Assembly: GCF_025950085.1 (NCBI RefSeq)
Contig: NZ_JAPDDS010000001.1
Location: 124,001-188,000, forward strand
Direction of reading: 5' to 3'
Source of the DNA: Luteolibacter flavescens
Lineage (GTDB): Bacteria > Verrucomicrobiota > Verrucomicrobiia > Verrucomicrobiales > Akkermansiaceae
DNA: 64,000 bases
This document shows, piece after piece, positions 27,155 through 32,489 of this stretch. Under the pieces are notes generated by a model. That model was not told the DNA's origin and ran no database searches. It saw nothing but the letters and a program-made list of their open reading frames with translations. Numbering within the stretch: the first letter of the stretch is position 1; each line of letters opens with the position of its first letter. The position numbers and the translations under genes were made by a program.

Positions 27155-28081
27155 ATGTCCGACGAAGCACCTGCCGAAATCCCAGCCACTCCGGAAACCC
27201 CGGAGCCCGCGCCCGGCCTGCGCAGGGACATGATGGTGCTGACGAAGATGCGGCTGAATGTCTTCGTCCTCATCACCACCTTCTTCGGCTATCTGCTCGC
27301 CTCGCGCGGCCATGAGTTCGATTTCTGGCGGCTGGTCCACACGATCATCGGCACGGCAGCGGCGGCCTTCGGCTCCGCGGCCTTCAACCAGCTCATGGAG
27401 GTGGACCTGGATGCCCGCATGCGGCGCACGGCGGACCGTCCGCTTCCAGCCCGGCGCATGGACCCGCTGTTCGCCTTCGGGGTGGGGTGGATACTTTCCG
27501 CCGCGGGCATCATTCACCTGGCGATCAAGATCGGCCTGTGGCCCGCGATCCTCGCGGCGATCACGATCGCCGTTTACGTTTTCATCTACACGCCGCTGAA
27601 GCGCATCAGCAGCACGAACACGCTGGTCGGAGCCATCCCCGGAGCGATCCCGCCGATGATTGGCTGGACCGCGGCGGGCGGTGCCTTCGACGGCGGCGCG
27701 TGGTTCCTTTTCACGCTGCTCGCCCTCTGGCAGCTCCCGCATTTCGTGGCGATCAATTGGCTCTGCCGCGAGGAATACGAGAACGCCGGCTACAAGATGT
27801 GGTCGGACGGGGACGTCAGCGGCCGCCGCAGTGCCCTCATCGCCGCGGTCTTTTCGCTTTGCCTCGCGGCCTTGCCCGTGTGGCCGTGGCTTGCGGGCTG
27901 GACGCCGGGATGGCTTGGCTACGTTGCCCTCGGTGGCGGCATCCTCGCGGGGCTTCTCATGGCCGCGCTGGCCGGGCGCTTCATGCGGGATGGCGAGCGC
28001 ACTTCTTTCCGCCGGCTTTTCCTCTTCACCCTGTTGTATCTGCCCCTTGAGCTTGGATTGCTTGCCATCGCTTGGGCCTAG
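27155..28081 (+). CDS. ctaB: protoheme IX farnesyltransferase (heme O synthase)
   Basis: 308 residues with about eight membrane helices. UbiA-family motifs: NQLMEVDLDARMRRTADRP (first Asp-rich NxxxDxxxD) and YTPLKRISSTNTLVGAIPGA (second loop), followed by PPMIGW. It attaches a farnesyl chain to heme B to give heme O for heme-copper oxidases. The N-terminal 25 residues are Pro/Glu rich. It starts the group ctaB-sco-sco-DUF420-hisD; no oxidase subunit genes lie in the window. Confidence 0.95.
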   Translation: MSDEAPAEIPATPETPEPAPGLRRDMMVLTKMRLNVFVLITTFFGYLLASRGHEFDFWRLVHTIIGTAAAAFGSAAFNQLMEVDLDARMRRTADRPLPARRMDPLFAFGVGWILSAAGIIHLAIKIGLWPAILAAITIAVYVFIYTPLKRISSTNTLVGAIPGAIPPMIGWTAAGGAFDGGAWFLFTLLALWQLPHFVAINWLCREEYENAGYKMWSDGDVSGRRSALIAAVFSLCLAALPVWPWLAGWTPGWLGYVALGGGILAGLLMAALAGRFMRDGERTSFRRLFLFTLLYLPLELGLLAIAWA

Positions 28082-28099: not shown

Positions 28100-28882
28100 A
28101 TGAGGACGCCTGTCGAACCACTCGTCCCCGCCGAGCGCGATCCGCGCAAGCTGCGGAAGACCGCACTCTGGCTTGTTGTGATCATGATCGCCAGCGGGGT
28201 AGGCATTTACACCGCCTACATCAAGTGGGGTCACAAGAAGATGCAGGAGCAGGCGGAGCACGCCCGCCCGGGCATCGTCGGCCGCATCGACAACAAGTCG
28301 GAATTCGGAGTCGTGCGTCAGGATGCCTCCGGTGCCAAGGTCTCCGATCTCTTCGGCAAGGTGTGGGTGGTGTGTGGTGTCTCGGTGAAAGATCCGGACT
28401 CCTGGAAAGCCACCCGGGAGGTGCTGCTGCGCCTGAACGAGCGCTACGCGGGCAATGACGATTTCCGCATCGTCTGCTTCACCGTGGATCCGAACCAGGA
28501 GGAACCTGCCGTGCTGGAAGCTGCCGCGAAGGAACTCGGCGCGAATCTCCCGGAGTGGTGGTTCGTCGGAGCAGGGGAGGAATACGTCCACAAGTTCCTG
28601 AAGAACCAGCTCAAGCTCGGCATCATGCCGCACCGGGAGGACGGCAAGTGGATCTATGATTCGTCGATCACGCTGATCGACCGCGACCGCCACATCCGCC
28701 GTGCCGTGGTGCCTCAGCAGCGTGGCGGCCCGCCGTATGTGGCCCCCTTTGATTTCGCCCAAGCCGCGGAGTGGGATGCCAAGGGAGTGAAGACCGGCAT
28801 CGAAAAGACCAACTCCGAACAACTCGAGCACTTGCTCGTACAGACCATCGACGGGCTGCTGGCCCAACCTGTAACGCCATGA
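28100..28882 (+). CDS. Sco/SenC-like protein without copper ligands
   Basis: 260 residues, one N-terminal membrane helix (TALWLVVIMIASGVGIYTAY) and a thioredoxin-like periplasmic domain. It aligns by eye with the next gene (FRIVCFTVDPN, DSSITLIDRDRHIR). The CxxxC of Sco proteins is replaced by VWVVCGVSVKDPDS, with one cysteine, and the conserved metal-binding His before the ITL strand is Tyr-Asp (WIYDSSITL). Copper transfer by this protein alone is therefore doubtful; a partner role to the next Sco is inferred. It begins 18 bp after ctaB and overlaps the next start (ATGA). Confidence 0.85.
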   Translation: MRTPVEPLVPAERDPRKLRKTALWLVVIMIASGVGIYTAYIKWGHKKMQEQAEHARPGIVGRIDNKSEFGVVRQDASGAKVSDLFGKVWVVCGVSVKDPDSWKATREVLLRLNERYAGNDDFRIVCFTVDPNQEEPAVLEAAAKELGANLPEWWFVGAGEEYVHKFLKNQLKLGIMPHREDGKWIYDSSITLIDRDRHIRRAVVPQQRGGPPYVAPFDFAQAAEWDAKGVKTGIEKTNSEQLEHLLVQTIDGLLAQPVTP

Positions 28883-29637
28883 ACGACCGAGGAAAAATCT
28901 TTGCCATCTACGGCACCGTGGCCGTGCTCTCCGCGCTGATCCTGGGCACGGCGATGTATCTGGGAAACCGTGTGCCCGAGCAGGCGCAACCGGACTTCCA
29001 CAACGCGGGGATGGAGAAGGTCGATACCTTCTTCCAGATCCAGAAGGACTTCACCGGCGTCAATCAGTCGGGCGAGCAGGTGAAGCTCTCCGATCTGAAG
29101 GGCAAGGTCTGGCTCGTCGCGGAGTTCTTCGCGATCTGCCCGCACTGTGCCGCGCGGAATGGCCAGGAGATCAAATCGCTCTTCGATCAATTCAAGGATC
29201 ATCCCGACTTTCACGTCACCTGCATCTCCGTCGATCCCACGACGGACACGCCCGAGCGCCTGACGGAATACTCGAAGGCCCTGGAGGCAGACCCCGAACG
29301 CTGGTGGTTCATGAGCCACCCGAATGAAAAGGAGACCCACGAGTATCTGGAGCAGGAGCTGAAGTTCCTGCGCGTGCGGGAACGCCTCGACCCCGTGGAT
29401 CGCGAGGCGAACGGTCGCTTCGAGCACGACATGTCCATCACGCTGGTGGACCGCGAGTGGAACATCGTTGGCAAGTGGAACCTCTACGGCGCTCGCTCCG
29501 AGGAGGGTCGCAAGCAGGACCCGGAAGCCTACGAGCGCATGAAGGCGGAACTCGTGTCCCGTCTCACCGAGGAGCTTGAGAAGAACGAGACCGCAGGGAT
29601 CGAGAATCTCGCGGAAGATGACTCCACCCATGACTGA
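28879..29637 (+). CDS. Sco/SenC family copper chaperone
   Basis: 252 residues from ATG 28879, which overlaps the preceding stop; the frame upstream is a shadow of the first Sco. N-terminal helix (IFAIYGTVAVLSALILGTAM), then a thioredoxin-like domain. The redox/metal pair is CPHC in EFFAICPHCAARN (two residues between the cysteines, not the usual three), and the third ligand His is kept in FEHDMSITLVD. The family delivers copper to the CuA or CuB site of cytochrome oxidase. It overlaps the DUF420 start by 8 bp. Confidence 0.9.
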   Translation: MNDRGKIFAIYGTVAVLSALILGTAMYLGNRVPEQAQPDFHNAGMEKVDTFFQIQKDFTGVNQSGEQVKLSDLKGKVWLVAEFFAICPHCAARNGQEIKSLFDQFKDHPDFHVTCISVDPTTDTPERLTEYSKALEADPERWWFMSHPNEKETHEYLEQELKFLRVRERLDPVDREANGRFEHDMSITLVDREWNIVGKWNLYGARSEEGRKQDPEAYERMKAELVSRLTEELEKNETAGIENLAEDDSTHD

Positions 29638-30241
29638 CGAGCGCAGGGAGTGGCTGTCGCGACCGCCGCAGGAGGCGCTGTCGAAGAAGCTTTCGATCAT
29701 CGCCTGGATACTGACCGGTGCGGTGCTGGTCCTCGTCGGCCTGATGCGCCGGCCGGAACTGCGCATCCCGCTGCCGGAGGGCTGGAGCTTCGATTTCCTG
29801 CCACCCGTCCATGCCGCCTTGAACACCGGGGTGAGCATCGCCCTGGTCATCGCCCTCGTCGCGGTGAAGCAGGGAAAGATCGCGCTGCACAAGAACGCGA
29901 TCTACGCCGCGATGGCGCTCTCGGTGACCTTCCTGCTCTGCTACGTCGCGTATCACTTCACGAACATGGAAGTGCTCTTTGGCGATGCGAACAAAGACGG
30001 TCTGCTGGACGAGGCAGAGCGTGCCGCGGTGAGCGGCGTGCGCCCGGCTTACCTCCTCCTTCTGATTTCCCACATTGTGCTCGCGGGCGTCAGCCTGCCT
30101 TGCATCCTGATCACCTTCATCGCCGGATTCACGAATCGCTTCGCAGCGCACCGCCGCCTGGCCAAGTGGGTCTTCCCGCTGTGGCTTTACGTCGCCGTCA
30201 CCGGCCCGATCTGCTACCTGATGCTCAAGCCCTACTACTGA
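29630..30241 (+). CDS. DUF420 membrane protein with an EF-hand loop
   Basis: 203 residues from ATG 29630 (ATG 29618 also possible). Five or so membrane helices, with conserved histidines in PPVHAALNT, KIALHKNAIYAA, CYVAYHFTN and LLISHIVLAGVSLP, as in CtaM-like DUF420 proteins needed for heme-copper oxidase maturation. Between the third and fourth helix a canonical 12-residue EF-hand loop (DANKDGLLDEAE, residues about 119-130) replaces the usual short Gly-rich loop. Gene order after ctaB and two sco genes supports a role in oxidase assembly. Confidence 0.88.
   Translation: MTDERREWLSRPPQEALSKKLSIIAWILTGAVLVLVGLMRRPELRIPLPEGWSFDFLPPVHAALNTGVSIALVIALVAVKQGKIALHKNAIYAAMALSVTFLLCYVAYHFTNMEVLFGDANKDGLLDEAERAAVSGVRPAYLLLLISHIVLAGVSLPCILITFIAGFTNRFAAHRRLAKWVFPLWLYVAVTGPICYLMLKPYY
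29984..30019 (+). other. EF-hand calcium-binding loop coding segment
   Basis: Encodes Asp1, Asn3, Asp5, Gly6, hydrophobic 7 (Leu), Asp9 (the -X position is filled by Asp) and Glu12: a full calcium-loop pattern, inside a predicted extracytoplasmic loop of the DUF420 protein. Confidence 0.75.
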
Positions 30242-31546: not shown

Positions 31547-31621
31547 GGCAGTGATGCTCTTTTGAGACCTCGGATCTGGTTGATGGAGACATCGCTATAT
31601 CCCGGTCGTGCCATGTGATAT

Positions 31622-31644
31622 GAAATGCCGTCACTTGGCATTTC
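31622..31644. repeat. inverted repeat between hisD and the next gene
   Basis: GAAATGCC and GGCATTTC form perfect 8-bp arms around seven bases, about 75 bp after hisD. There is no T run. It could be a transcript end or an operator for the gene at 31704. Confidence 0.4.
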
Positions 31645-31703
31645 CACAATGGCCCGGATTTTCAAAGCGACGGAGGCGTGCGGACCTGCTCGCATGCCAC
31701 CGC

Positions 31704-32489
31704 ATGAAAGACGAATTGCTACTGCGATTGGAGTCCTTCGAACTTGATGAACCCTCCGCCCCGTTCCCGTTCAGCGCCCGCTTGGCTCGTGAGAATGGTT
31801 GGTCCCGCGAATTCTCCCGCCGGGTGATCGTGGAATACAAGCGCTTCGTATGGCTGGCCATGCGGGCGGGCCACCCGGTGACACCGTCCGAGGAGGTCGA
31901 TGAGGCGTGGCATCTCCACCTCTGCTACACCCGCTCCTACTGGGACGGCATGTGCGGGGGAGTCCTCGGCAAGCCCCTCCATCATGGCCCCACCGAGGGC
32001 GGGGAGAAGGAGGATGCGATATTCGCGGACTGGTATGAGCGGACCTTGGAAAGCTACCGCCGCCTCTTCGGCGAGGAACTGCCCGCCGACATCTGGCCAC
32101 CGGCGGAAATCCGATTCCGGCCTGCATCCAGCCGGAAGATTGATGCCACAACGCACTGGGCCGTCCCGAAGCGAGTGATCAAGCGCGTCCTGCTCGGTGG
32201 CTCCATCGCTGCGGTATTGCCCGTCCTTGCGGGCTGCTCCCACCTGATCGCGGCGGCGGATTTCGGTGATCTTCTCTGCTTCCTGATCCCGGTCGCTTTC
32301 GTGGTCTGGATCATCGTCCTGGCCGTGAAAAAGGGCGGTAAGGGCGGAGGGAACGGATGCGGAGGAGGTGGCTGCGGAGGCACTTCCTCCGGTATCTCAA
32401 GCTGTGGCAGCAGCGCGGGTGACAGCGGTTCCTCGGGCTGCAGCTCCTCCGGTTGCGGAGGCGGGGGCTGTGGTGGAGGCGGAGATTGA
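31704..32489 (+). CDS. GRDP-like membrane protein with Gly/Cys-rich tail
   Basis: 261 residues from ATG 31704. The N-terminal half has the glycine-rich-domain-protein-like motif VDEAWHLHLCYTRSYW. Two hydrophobic segments follow (LLGGSIAAVLPVLAGC, and LLCFLIPVAFVVWIIVLAV), then KKGGKGG and a 65-residue tail of Gly, Ser and Cys, including repeated CGGGG units and at least nine cysteines. Similar tails end TIGR04222-type membrane proteins. The first hydrophobic segment contains LAGC, like a lipobox but internal. Function unknown; the tail may sit at a membrane face and bind metal or crosslink. Confidence 0.75.
   Translation: MKDELLLRLESFELDEPSAPFPFSARLARENGWSREFSRRVIVEYKRFVWLAMRAGHPVTPSEEVDEAWHLHLCYTRSYWDGMCGGVLGKPLHHGPTEGGEKEDAIFADWYERTLESYRRLFGEELPADIWPPAEIRFRPASSRKIDATTHWAVPKRVIKRVLLGGSIAAVLPVLAGCSHLIAAADFGDLLCFLIPVAFVVWIIVLAVKKGGKGGGNGCGGGGCGGTSSGISSCGSSAGDSGSSGCSSSGCGGGGCGGGGD

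Follow-up and report, generated by a model that had tools for sequence, protein, structure and literature searches.

The DUF420 (CtaM-family) protein encoded in a 64,000-nucleotide stretch of the Luteolibacter flavescens genome (contig NZ_JAPDDS010000001.1, positions 124,001 to 188,000; hereafter the window, whose own numbering and + strand are used throughout) carries a twelve-residue calcium-type loop, DANKDGLLDEAE, at residues 119-130 (29984..30019). The loop, recognized from the translated open reading frame and from ligand conservation among relatives, is part of a 14-residue insert that some orthologues have and others lack, and its ligand positions are strictly kept when it is present. 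We think that it probably binds Ca2+ in a structural role, as a loop-helix site of the Dx[DN]xDG type, and braces the outer loop of the protein beside conserved histidines. Orthologues can be up to 92% identical outside the insert and yet differ in having or lacking this metal-type loop next to the histidines; such pairs are ready-made material for testing the role of the outer loop in the CtaM family.

The gene (29630..30241, starting with the ATG at 29630) encodes 203 amino acids with five predicted transmembrane helices and belongs to Pfam family PF04238 (E 1.3e-37, 129.4 bits; cut-off 30.5); the genome (5.9 Mb) has no other DUF420 match. Directly upstream, overlapping its start by 8 bases, lies a SCO1/SenC protein gene that we call ScoB (28882..29637; PF02630, 55.3 bits), preceded by a second, divergent Sco-like gene, ScoA (28100..28882; PF02630, 16.6 bits, under the cut-off of 22.8), and by a CtaB-like UbiA-family prenyltransferase (27155..28081; PF01040, 167.5 bits) that, judged from this context, is a heme O synthase. 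The resulting order is ctaB-sco-sco-DUF420-hisD, and ctaB-sco-sco-DUF420 recurs in named relatives both with the insert (L092, L093 and L094) and without it (L095 and L109). The genome also has one heme A synthase (CtaA) and three oxidase subunit I matches, at least one of them possibly of the aa3 type, in line with the company of heme A synthase and aa3-type oxidase genes in which the CtaM family occurs.

Active aa3-type oxidases depend on CtaM in Bacillus and Staphylococcus (PMC4958251, PMC9145763), and the accessible portions of the literature propose that it acts in heme insertion, at CuB or in copper export (PMC4958251, PMC9145763, PMC13344008). The window protein falls in the same Pfam family as CtaM/YozB of these organisms, above the cut-off, and resembles CtaM further in having ctaB nearby, as in S. 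aureus, and four to five transmembrane segments (PMC9145763, in its accessible text); it differs in the 14-residue calcium-type loop of its outer loop. The initial annotation held that no calcium site had been described in this family, and the literature we could search bears this out. Neither 'calcium' nor 'EF-hand' appears in the accessible text of PMC9145763, PMC8239418, PMC13344008 or PMC12808453, 'calcium' is likewise absent from that of PMC4958251, and searches for DUF420 or CtaM, also combined with calcium and EF-hand, found no description of a calcium site in a literature whose subscription papers were mostly outside reach. A search joining EF-hand, cytochrome oxidase assembly and Verrucomicrobi found nothing.

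The loop lies exactly where it had first been placed within the DUF420 protein, the codon of D119 occupying 29984-29986 and that of E130 ending at 30019. At positions 1, 3, 5, 6, 8, 9 and 12 it agrees with the EF-loop pattern, in keeping with the original claim that it matches the calcium-loop positions, and its DANKDG...E also matches D-x-[DN]-x-[DN]-G, position 12 being acidic. Position 13 is R131, so that the full 13-position pattern is not fitted; the 12- and 13-position patterns used here are ones that we take to be of PROSITE type. The 12-position pattern arose in 4 of 50,000 shuffles of the whole protein and in 48 of 50,000 shuffles of the 27-residue loop segment. The protein holds the loop in a single copy.

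We collected 316 proteins passing 60 bits and 120 amino acids from Verrucomicrobiota and Bacteroidota, the two phyla covered by our reading of DUF420; 299 were distinct, 113 with the insert and 186 without. Grouped at 75% identity, the insert-bearing proteins form 64 clusters, among which D1 is present in 62, D, N or S at position 3 in all 64 and at position 5 in 62, G6 in 52, and a hydrophobic residue at position 8 and E12 in all 64, while positions 2, 4, 7, 10, 11 and 13 vary. E12 is found in every one of the 113 individual proteins. D.[DN].[DN]......E describes 106 of the 113 inserts and the stricter 12-position pattern 89; of the 24 that miss the latter, 18 do so solely through a hydrophobic residue at position 4. 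The 13-position pattern is fitted by 28 and missed by 85. Every insert has the same length and a shared tail (E..A.VG), and insert-less orthologues have a short GGxG turn in place of the loop. Outside the insert, residue 142 tracks its state, being Leu in 97 of 113 proteins with the insert and, among the 186 without it, Leu in 30 and Phe in 102, an association that spans about 15 independent pairs. The inserts of L025, L068 and L292 have lost or changed ligands (ETDGVKGLSDAE, NLDADTALSEEE and DTDGIKGLSEAE) and are perhaps decaying sites.

The insert is unevenly distributed, even at short range. DUF420 occurs in 100 of 117 genomes of the window's GTDB family, with matches of two lengths 14 codons apart, the longer ones carrying the calcium-type loop; 98 classified loci in 97 of these genomes divide into 43 with and 55 without the insert, and those of the window's own genus into 4 and 10. 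The alignment of DUF420 proteins at the loop, proposed in the initial annotation together with the view that a lack of conservation in close relatives would count against a calcium site, thus cuts both ways: ligand positions are conserved in 113 of 299 proteins, and 10 of 14 congeners have no loop, which is missing there by a change of state and not by decay of the motif. A description of the loop as conserved in the DUF420 proteins of Verrucomicrobiota would be wrong; the pattern is one of presence or absence.

The sample of the phylum contains DUF420 in 73 of 240 genomes and the insert in only three, all from the window's family. DUF420 is also present in 149 of 296 Bacteroidota genomes, where, among the matches listed, 17 places reach at least 420 bases and 14 carry the insert (one of them known from L141), and in 113 of 119 genomes of the order of Phaeodactylibacter, where 17 places are of at least 420 bases and all 16 that were read carry it; six of these genomes are shared with the Bacteroidota sample. 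Among the best 80 of 570 relatives in named genomes, 57 have the insert, including all 24 Bacteroidota, and 23 do not, a share that is biased because the scan favours sequences like the query. Length alone is no evidence for the loop, since long DUF420 places without it exist: 11 other long Verrucomicrobiota places (405-426 bases) showed no calcium-type loop when read, nor did three Bacteroidota places of 432 bases (L285, L286 and L288). These last three have a different insert at a similar place, with no calcium ligands (IGHTVFPEYAPD and the like). One genome (G053) encodes two DUF420 copies, L045 and L070, with a calcium-type loop in both, and in one genus of the window's family with small genomes (g3) DUF420 is absent from all 13 nearly complete genomes.

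How closely does the loop resemble known calcium sites? A profile built from 58 loops (25 columns) and searched against PDB sequences at E up to 10 returned 105 matches, with calcium-binding EF-hand proteins (E 2.5e-4) and a dockerin (E 0.01) at the top; most of the matches listed (60 of the 105) were of EF-hand or dockerin kinds. These matches are a likeness of motif, not of descent, and the search partly restates the motif. Another profile, A2, had only 10 weak matches among PDB sequences, including three dockerin chains that aligned at the loop. No EF-hand family matched the window protein in Pfam at E up to 10; an hmmscan of 50 insert-bearing proteins against Pfam gave EF-hand_5 in 6, Dockerin_1 in 2 and EF-hand_1 in 2, and 22 insert-less proteins showed no EF-hand family among the matches listed (25 of 42 families).

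Canonical EF-hands of the calmodulin type occur in pairs. The DUF420 loop shares with them its spacing, G6, the hydrophobic residue at position 8, E12 and an exit helix (128-133); it differs in having neither an entering helix nor a partner EF-hand in the sequence and in a position 13 that is mostly charged. Of the first description of the feature as an EF-hand loop, what stands is a calcium-type loop with EF-loop spacing; a canonical EF-hand we reject, given the missing entering helix, the single copy and the charged R131. The arrangement of a loop followed by one helix is also that of the type I dockerin calcium repeat, whose chains the loop profile matches; dockerin repeats, however, are paired and bind cohesins, whereas DUF420 has one loop in a membrane protein. 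A further parallel is with Dx[DN]xDG loops outside EF-hands, which likewise have twelve residues with ligands at 1, 3, 5 and 12 and need no helix-loop-helix (PMC3123361, accessible text). Such loops occur in many contexts, Rigden et al. weighed transplant against convergence as their origin, and a protein is known to acquire a Ca2+ site when such a loop is inserted (PMC3123361, accessible text). The DUF420 loop differs from these in residing in an oxidase-assembly membrane protein and in switching on and off among close orthologues, and it provides a natural system in which to set convergence against transplant; 'DUF' does not occur in the main text of PMC3123361.

An AlphaFold2 (AF2) model of the window protein (mean pLDDT 95.3, pTM 0.88) contains five long helices (15-39, 57-80, 84-111, 138-167 and 171-202) and places the loop between the third and fourth. 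Residues 111-120 and 121-130 have confidences of 93 and 94, in a model built without metal. Because the third helix ends at 111 and the loop begins only at 119, with a short exit helix behind it (DSSP on the model, residues 128-133, 30011..30028), the architecture is loop-helix and not helix-loop-helix. The positive charges of the other loops suggest that this one is on the outer side of the membrane; the helices at 84-111 and 138-167 accord with the initial annotation's outer loop between two helices. The insert-less orthologue L109 is predicted to have the same helices joined by a short turn (mean pLDDT 92.0, turn block 85), from a shallower alignment of 22 rows against 50 for the window protein.

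As is typical of the CtaM family, the window protein combines four to five transmembrane helices with conserved histidines. His87 (29888..29890) and His174 (30149..30151) lie towards the inner side and are His in 299 of 299 proteins and in all 298 with a letter there, respectively. The loop is flanked by the other two: His109 (29954..29956; 272 of 299), at the end of the third helix and eight to ten residues ahead of the loop, and His148 (30071..30073; 299 of 299) in the fourth helix. With two of these four nearly invariant histidines near each membrane face of the model, DUF420 may hold a metal or heme site. In fold comparisons, the best Foldseek match in the PDB was oxidase subunit III (E 0.063, TM 0.44), with no match at E 0.001 or better; VIA-align scored subunit III and designed helical bundles alike at Z of about 10, gave 7.9 for cytochrome b561 (4o6y), and yielded similar values for the insert-less model. 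These Z values are inside the tool's range for unrelated helical bundles, and we therefore claim no fold relation.

Taken as a structural site, the twelve residues would wrap one Ca2+ through side chains 1, 3, 5 and 12, with position 7 contributing a main-chain oxygen and position 9 acting as a ligand directly or through water, the coordination seen in Dx[DN]xDG loops. A Glu at position 12 suits Ca2+ rather than Mg2+. Calcium in the periplasm or outside the cell is usually high and steady, so that the site would usually be occupied and would act as a staple, holding in place the lengthened outer loop and the beginning of the fourth helix. The stapled region would adjoin the His109/His148 site, which may handle a cargo of copper, heme or electrons for Sco proteins or the oxidase. 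Insert-less orthologues would do the same job with their short GGxG turn; since most of the window's genus has no loop, the loop must be dispensable for the basic role of the family.

Over its evolution the family seems to have gained and lost the loop repeatedly. A large tree (FastTree, insert columns excluded) needs 25 state changes, 15 of them forced by starred, well-supported branches, against 91 for shuffled labels, although error in the tree inflates such counts. The nearest relative is insert-less for 12 of 113 insert-bearing proteins, and the reverse holds for 9 of 186. A second tree, built with more care for 48 rows near the window and with both insert and flanks excluded, requires 7 changes, of which starred branches compel 3; a single change suffices in none of 200 bootstrap trees, and the AU test rejects a single clade of insert-bearing rows (p 0.0004). 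There the window protein pairs with the insert-less L037 (support 99/91), and both join the insert-less L013 (100/92).

Frequent switching need not mean frequent gain. The insert could be old, ancestral in a larger clade and lost many times, with no transfer of the loop segment; its one length and shared tail are what a single origin predicts, and if a gain costs five times as much as a loss, parsimony infers 2 gains and 45 losses. The direction does depend on costs, with 24 gains and 1 loss at equal cost, 14 and 16 at 2:1, and 3 and 41 at 3:1, losses being favoured once a gain costs at least three losses. Yet a two-state model whose root is set to lack the insert prefers gains (gain rate 0.32, loss rate 0.06, lnL -95.0); holding gain near zero worsens the fit greatly (lnL -143.1), and near-zero loss gives -97.6. 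Moreover, the window is nested with strong support among insert-less rows, every loss would need to leave a GGxG-like turn, and flanks change along with the insert in half of the 12 pairs tested (see below). We therefore consider ancient origin followed by loss alone to be rather unlikely.

The flanks are where the change of state leaves a broader footprint. Relative to L037, many residues are replaced both in the non-helical segment ahead of the insert (residues 112-118, 29963..29983) and in the start of the fourth helix behind it (residues 133-151, 30026..30082), the insert itself, aligned to L037, comprising residues 119-132 (29984..30025). Differences affect 14 of 32 flank residues and 14 of 139 elsewhere (p 3e-5), while L013 and L037, both insert-less, show 0 of 32. 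Among discordant pairs, a flank excess was found in 6 of 12 (p < 0.05, one-sided and uncorrected) and none in the other 6; the insert-less pair L005/L037 also has a somewhat lower flank identity (0.78 against 0.86). Over all pairs of like divergence, which are not independent, flank identity is about 0.05 to 0.15 lower in discordant than in concordant pairs.

In its loop segment (residues 112-147) the window protein resembles some Bacteroidota and Opitutales (0.69 against 0.50 elsewhere for L293, and 0.69 against 0.54 for L154) more than it does the insert-bearing congeners L022 and L048 (0.53, ranks 31 and 32 of 112, against 0.78-0.79 elsewhere), although the segment is closest of all to those of L092 (0.78) and L093 (0.72). 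The pair L001-L293 stands 2.9 SD over the trend, rank 27 of 6,328 pairs. That the window's change of state altered flanking codons too suggests an exchange of segments. The footprint fits short-segment exchange; selection for matching flanks after the change fits too. One possibility, which we put forward tentatively, is that a 14-residue calcium-binding cassette moves between orthologues within and across phyla (Verrucomicrobiota and Bacteroidota) by recombination at the flanking conserved helices, and tunes the assembly factor to outside calcium. If so, the moving cassette would exemplify in nature the loop transplant which Rigden and Galperin considered as the alternative to convergence.

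Calcium could also be irrelevant, the insert serving as an acidic docking arm for Sco or cytochrome c, or as a site for another metal such as Cu2+, Mn2+ or a lanthanide. The outer segment is indeed strongly acidic with the insert (net charge -4.2, against -0.9 without), and a role of CtaM in copper export was proposed in a 2026 study (PMC13344008, accessible portion), with which a Sco gene beside DUF420 is in line, though it is silent on the loop. A docking arm, however, has no need of exact spacing at positions 1, 3, 5, 6, 8 and 12 with an invariant E12 and G6, and we found no conserved His or Cys suited to copper within the insert of the insert-bearing relatives. We regard both variants as unlikely.

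More doubtful still is a calcium sensor, in which outside calcium would fill or empty the loop, switch CtaM activity and couple oxidase assembly to the calcium supply. In favour of a sensor are ligands typical of a genuine Ca2+ site and the nearness of the loop to His109 and His148; against it stand the single loop with no paired EF-hand and the usually high, steady ambient calcium. Nor did residues in the neighbouring Sco associate with the insert: across 114 loci (47 with and 67 without) and 938 column-residue tests in ScoB nothing stood out, at the low power of only 5 independent pairs. Finally, the absence of the insert from 186 of 299 proteins speaks for a chance or neutral acidic stretch resembling an EF loop, which is nevertheless barely credible, the simple form of this reading being refuted by ligand positions held in 64 separate clusters of two phyla, with the rarity of the pattern in whole-protein shuffles (4 of 50,000) pointing the same way. 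A structural Ca2+ site thus remains our preferred reading.

Some features of the neighbourhood are worth recording in their own right. Sco proteins usually carry a C-x3-C pair. The ScoB encoded beside DUF420 has instead CPHC (C-x2-C), and the first C-x2/3-C pair in the ScoB of relatives is C-x2-C in 112 of 114; ScoA has no such Cys pair. Downstream, the open reading frame at 31608-32489 encodes a protein that matches nothing in Pfam at E up to 1 and has a long C-terminal tail rich in Gly, Cys and Ser.
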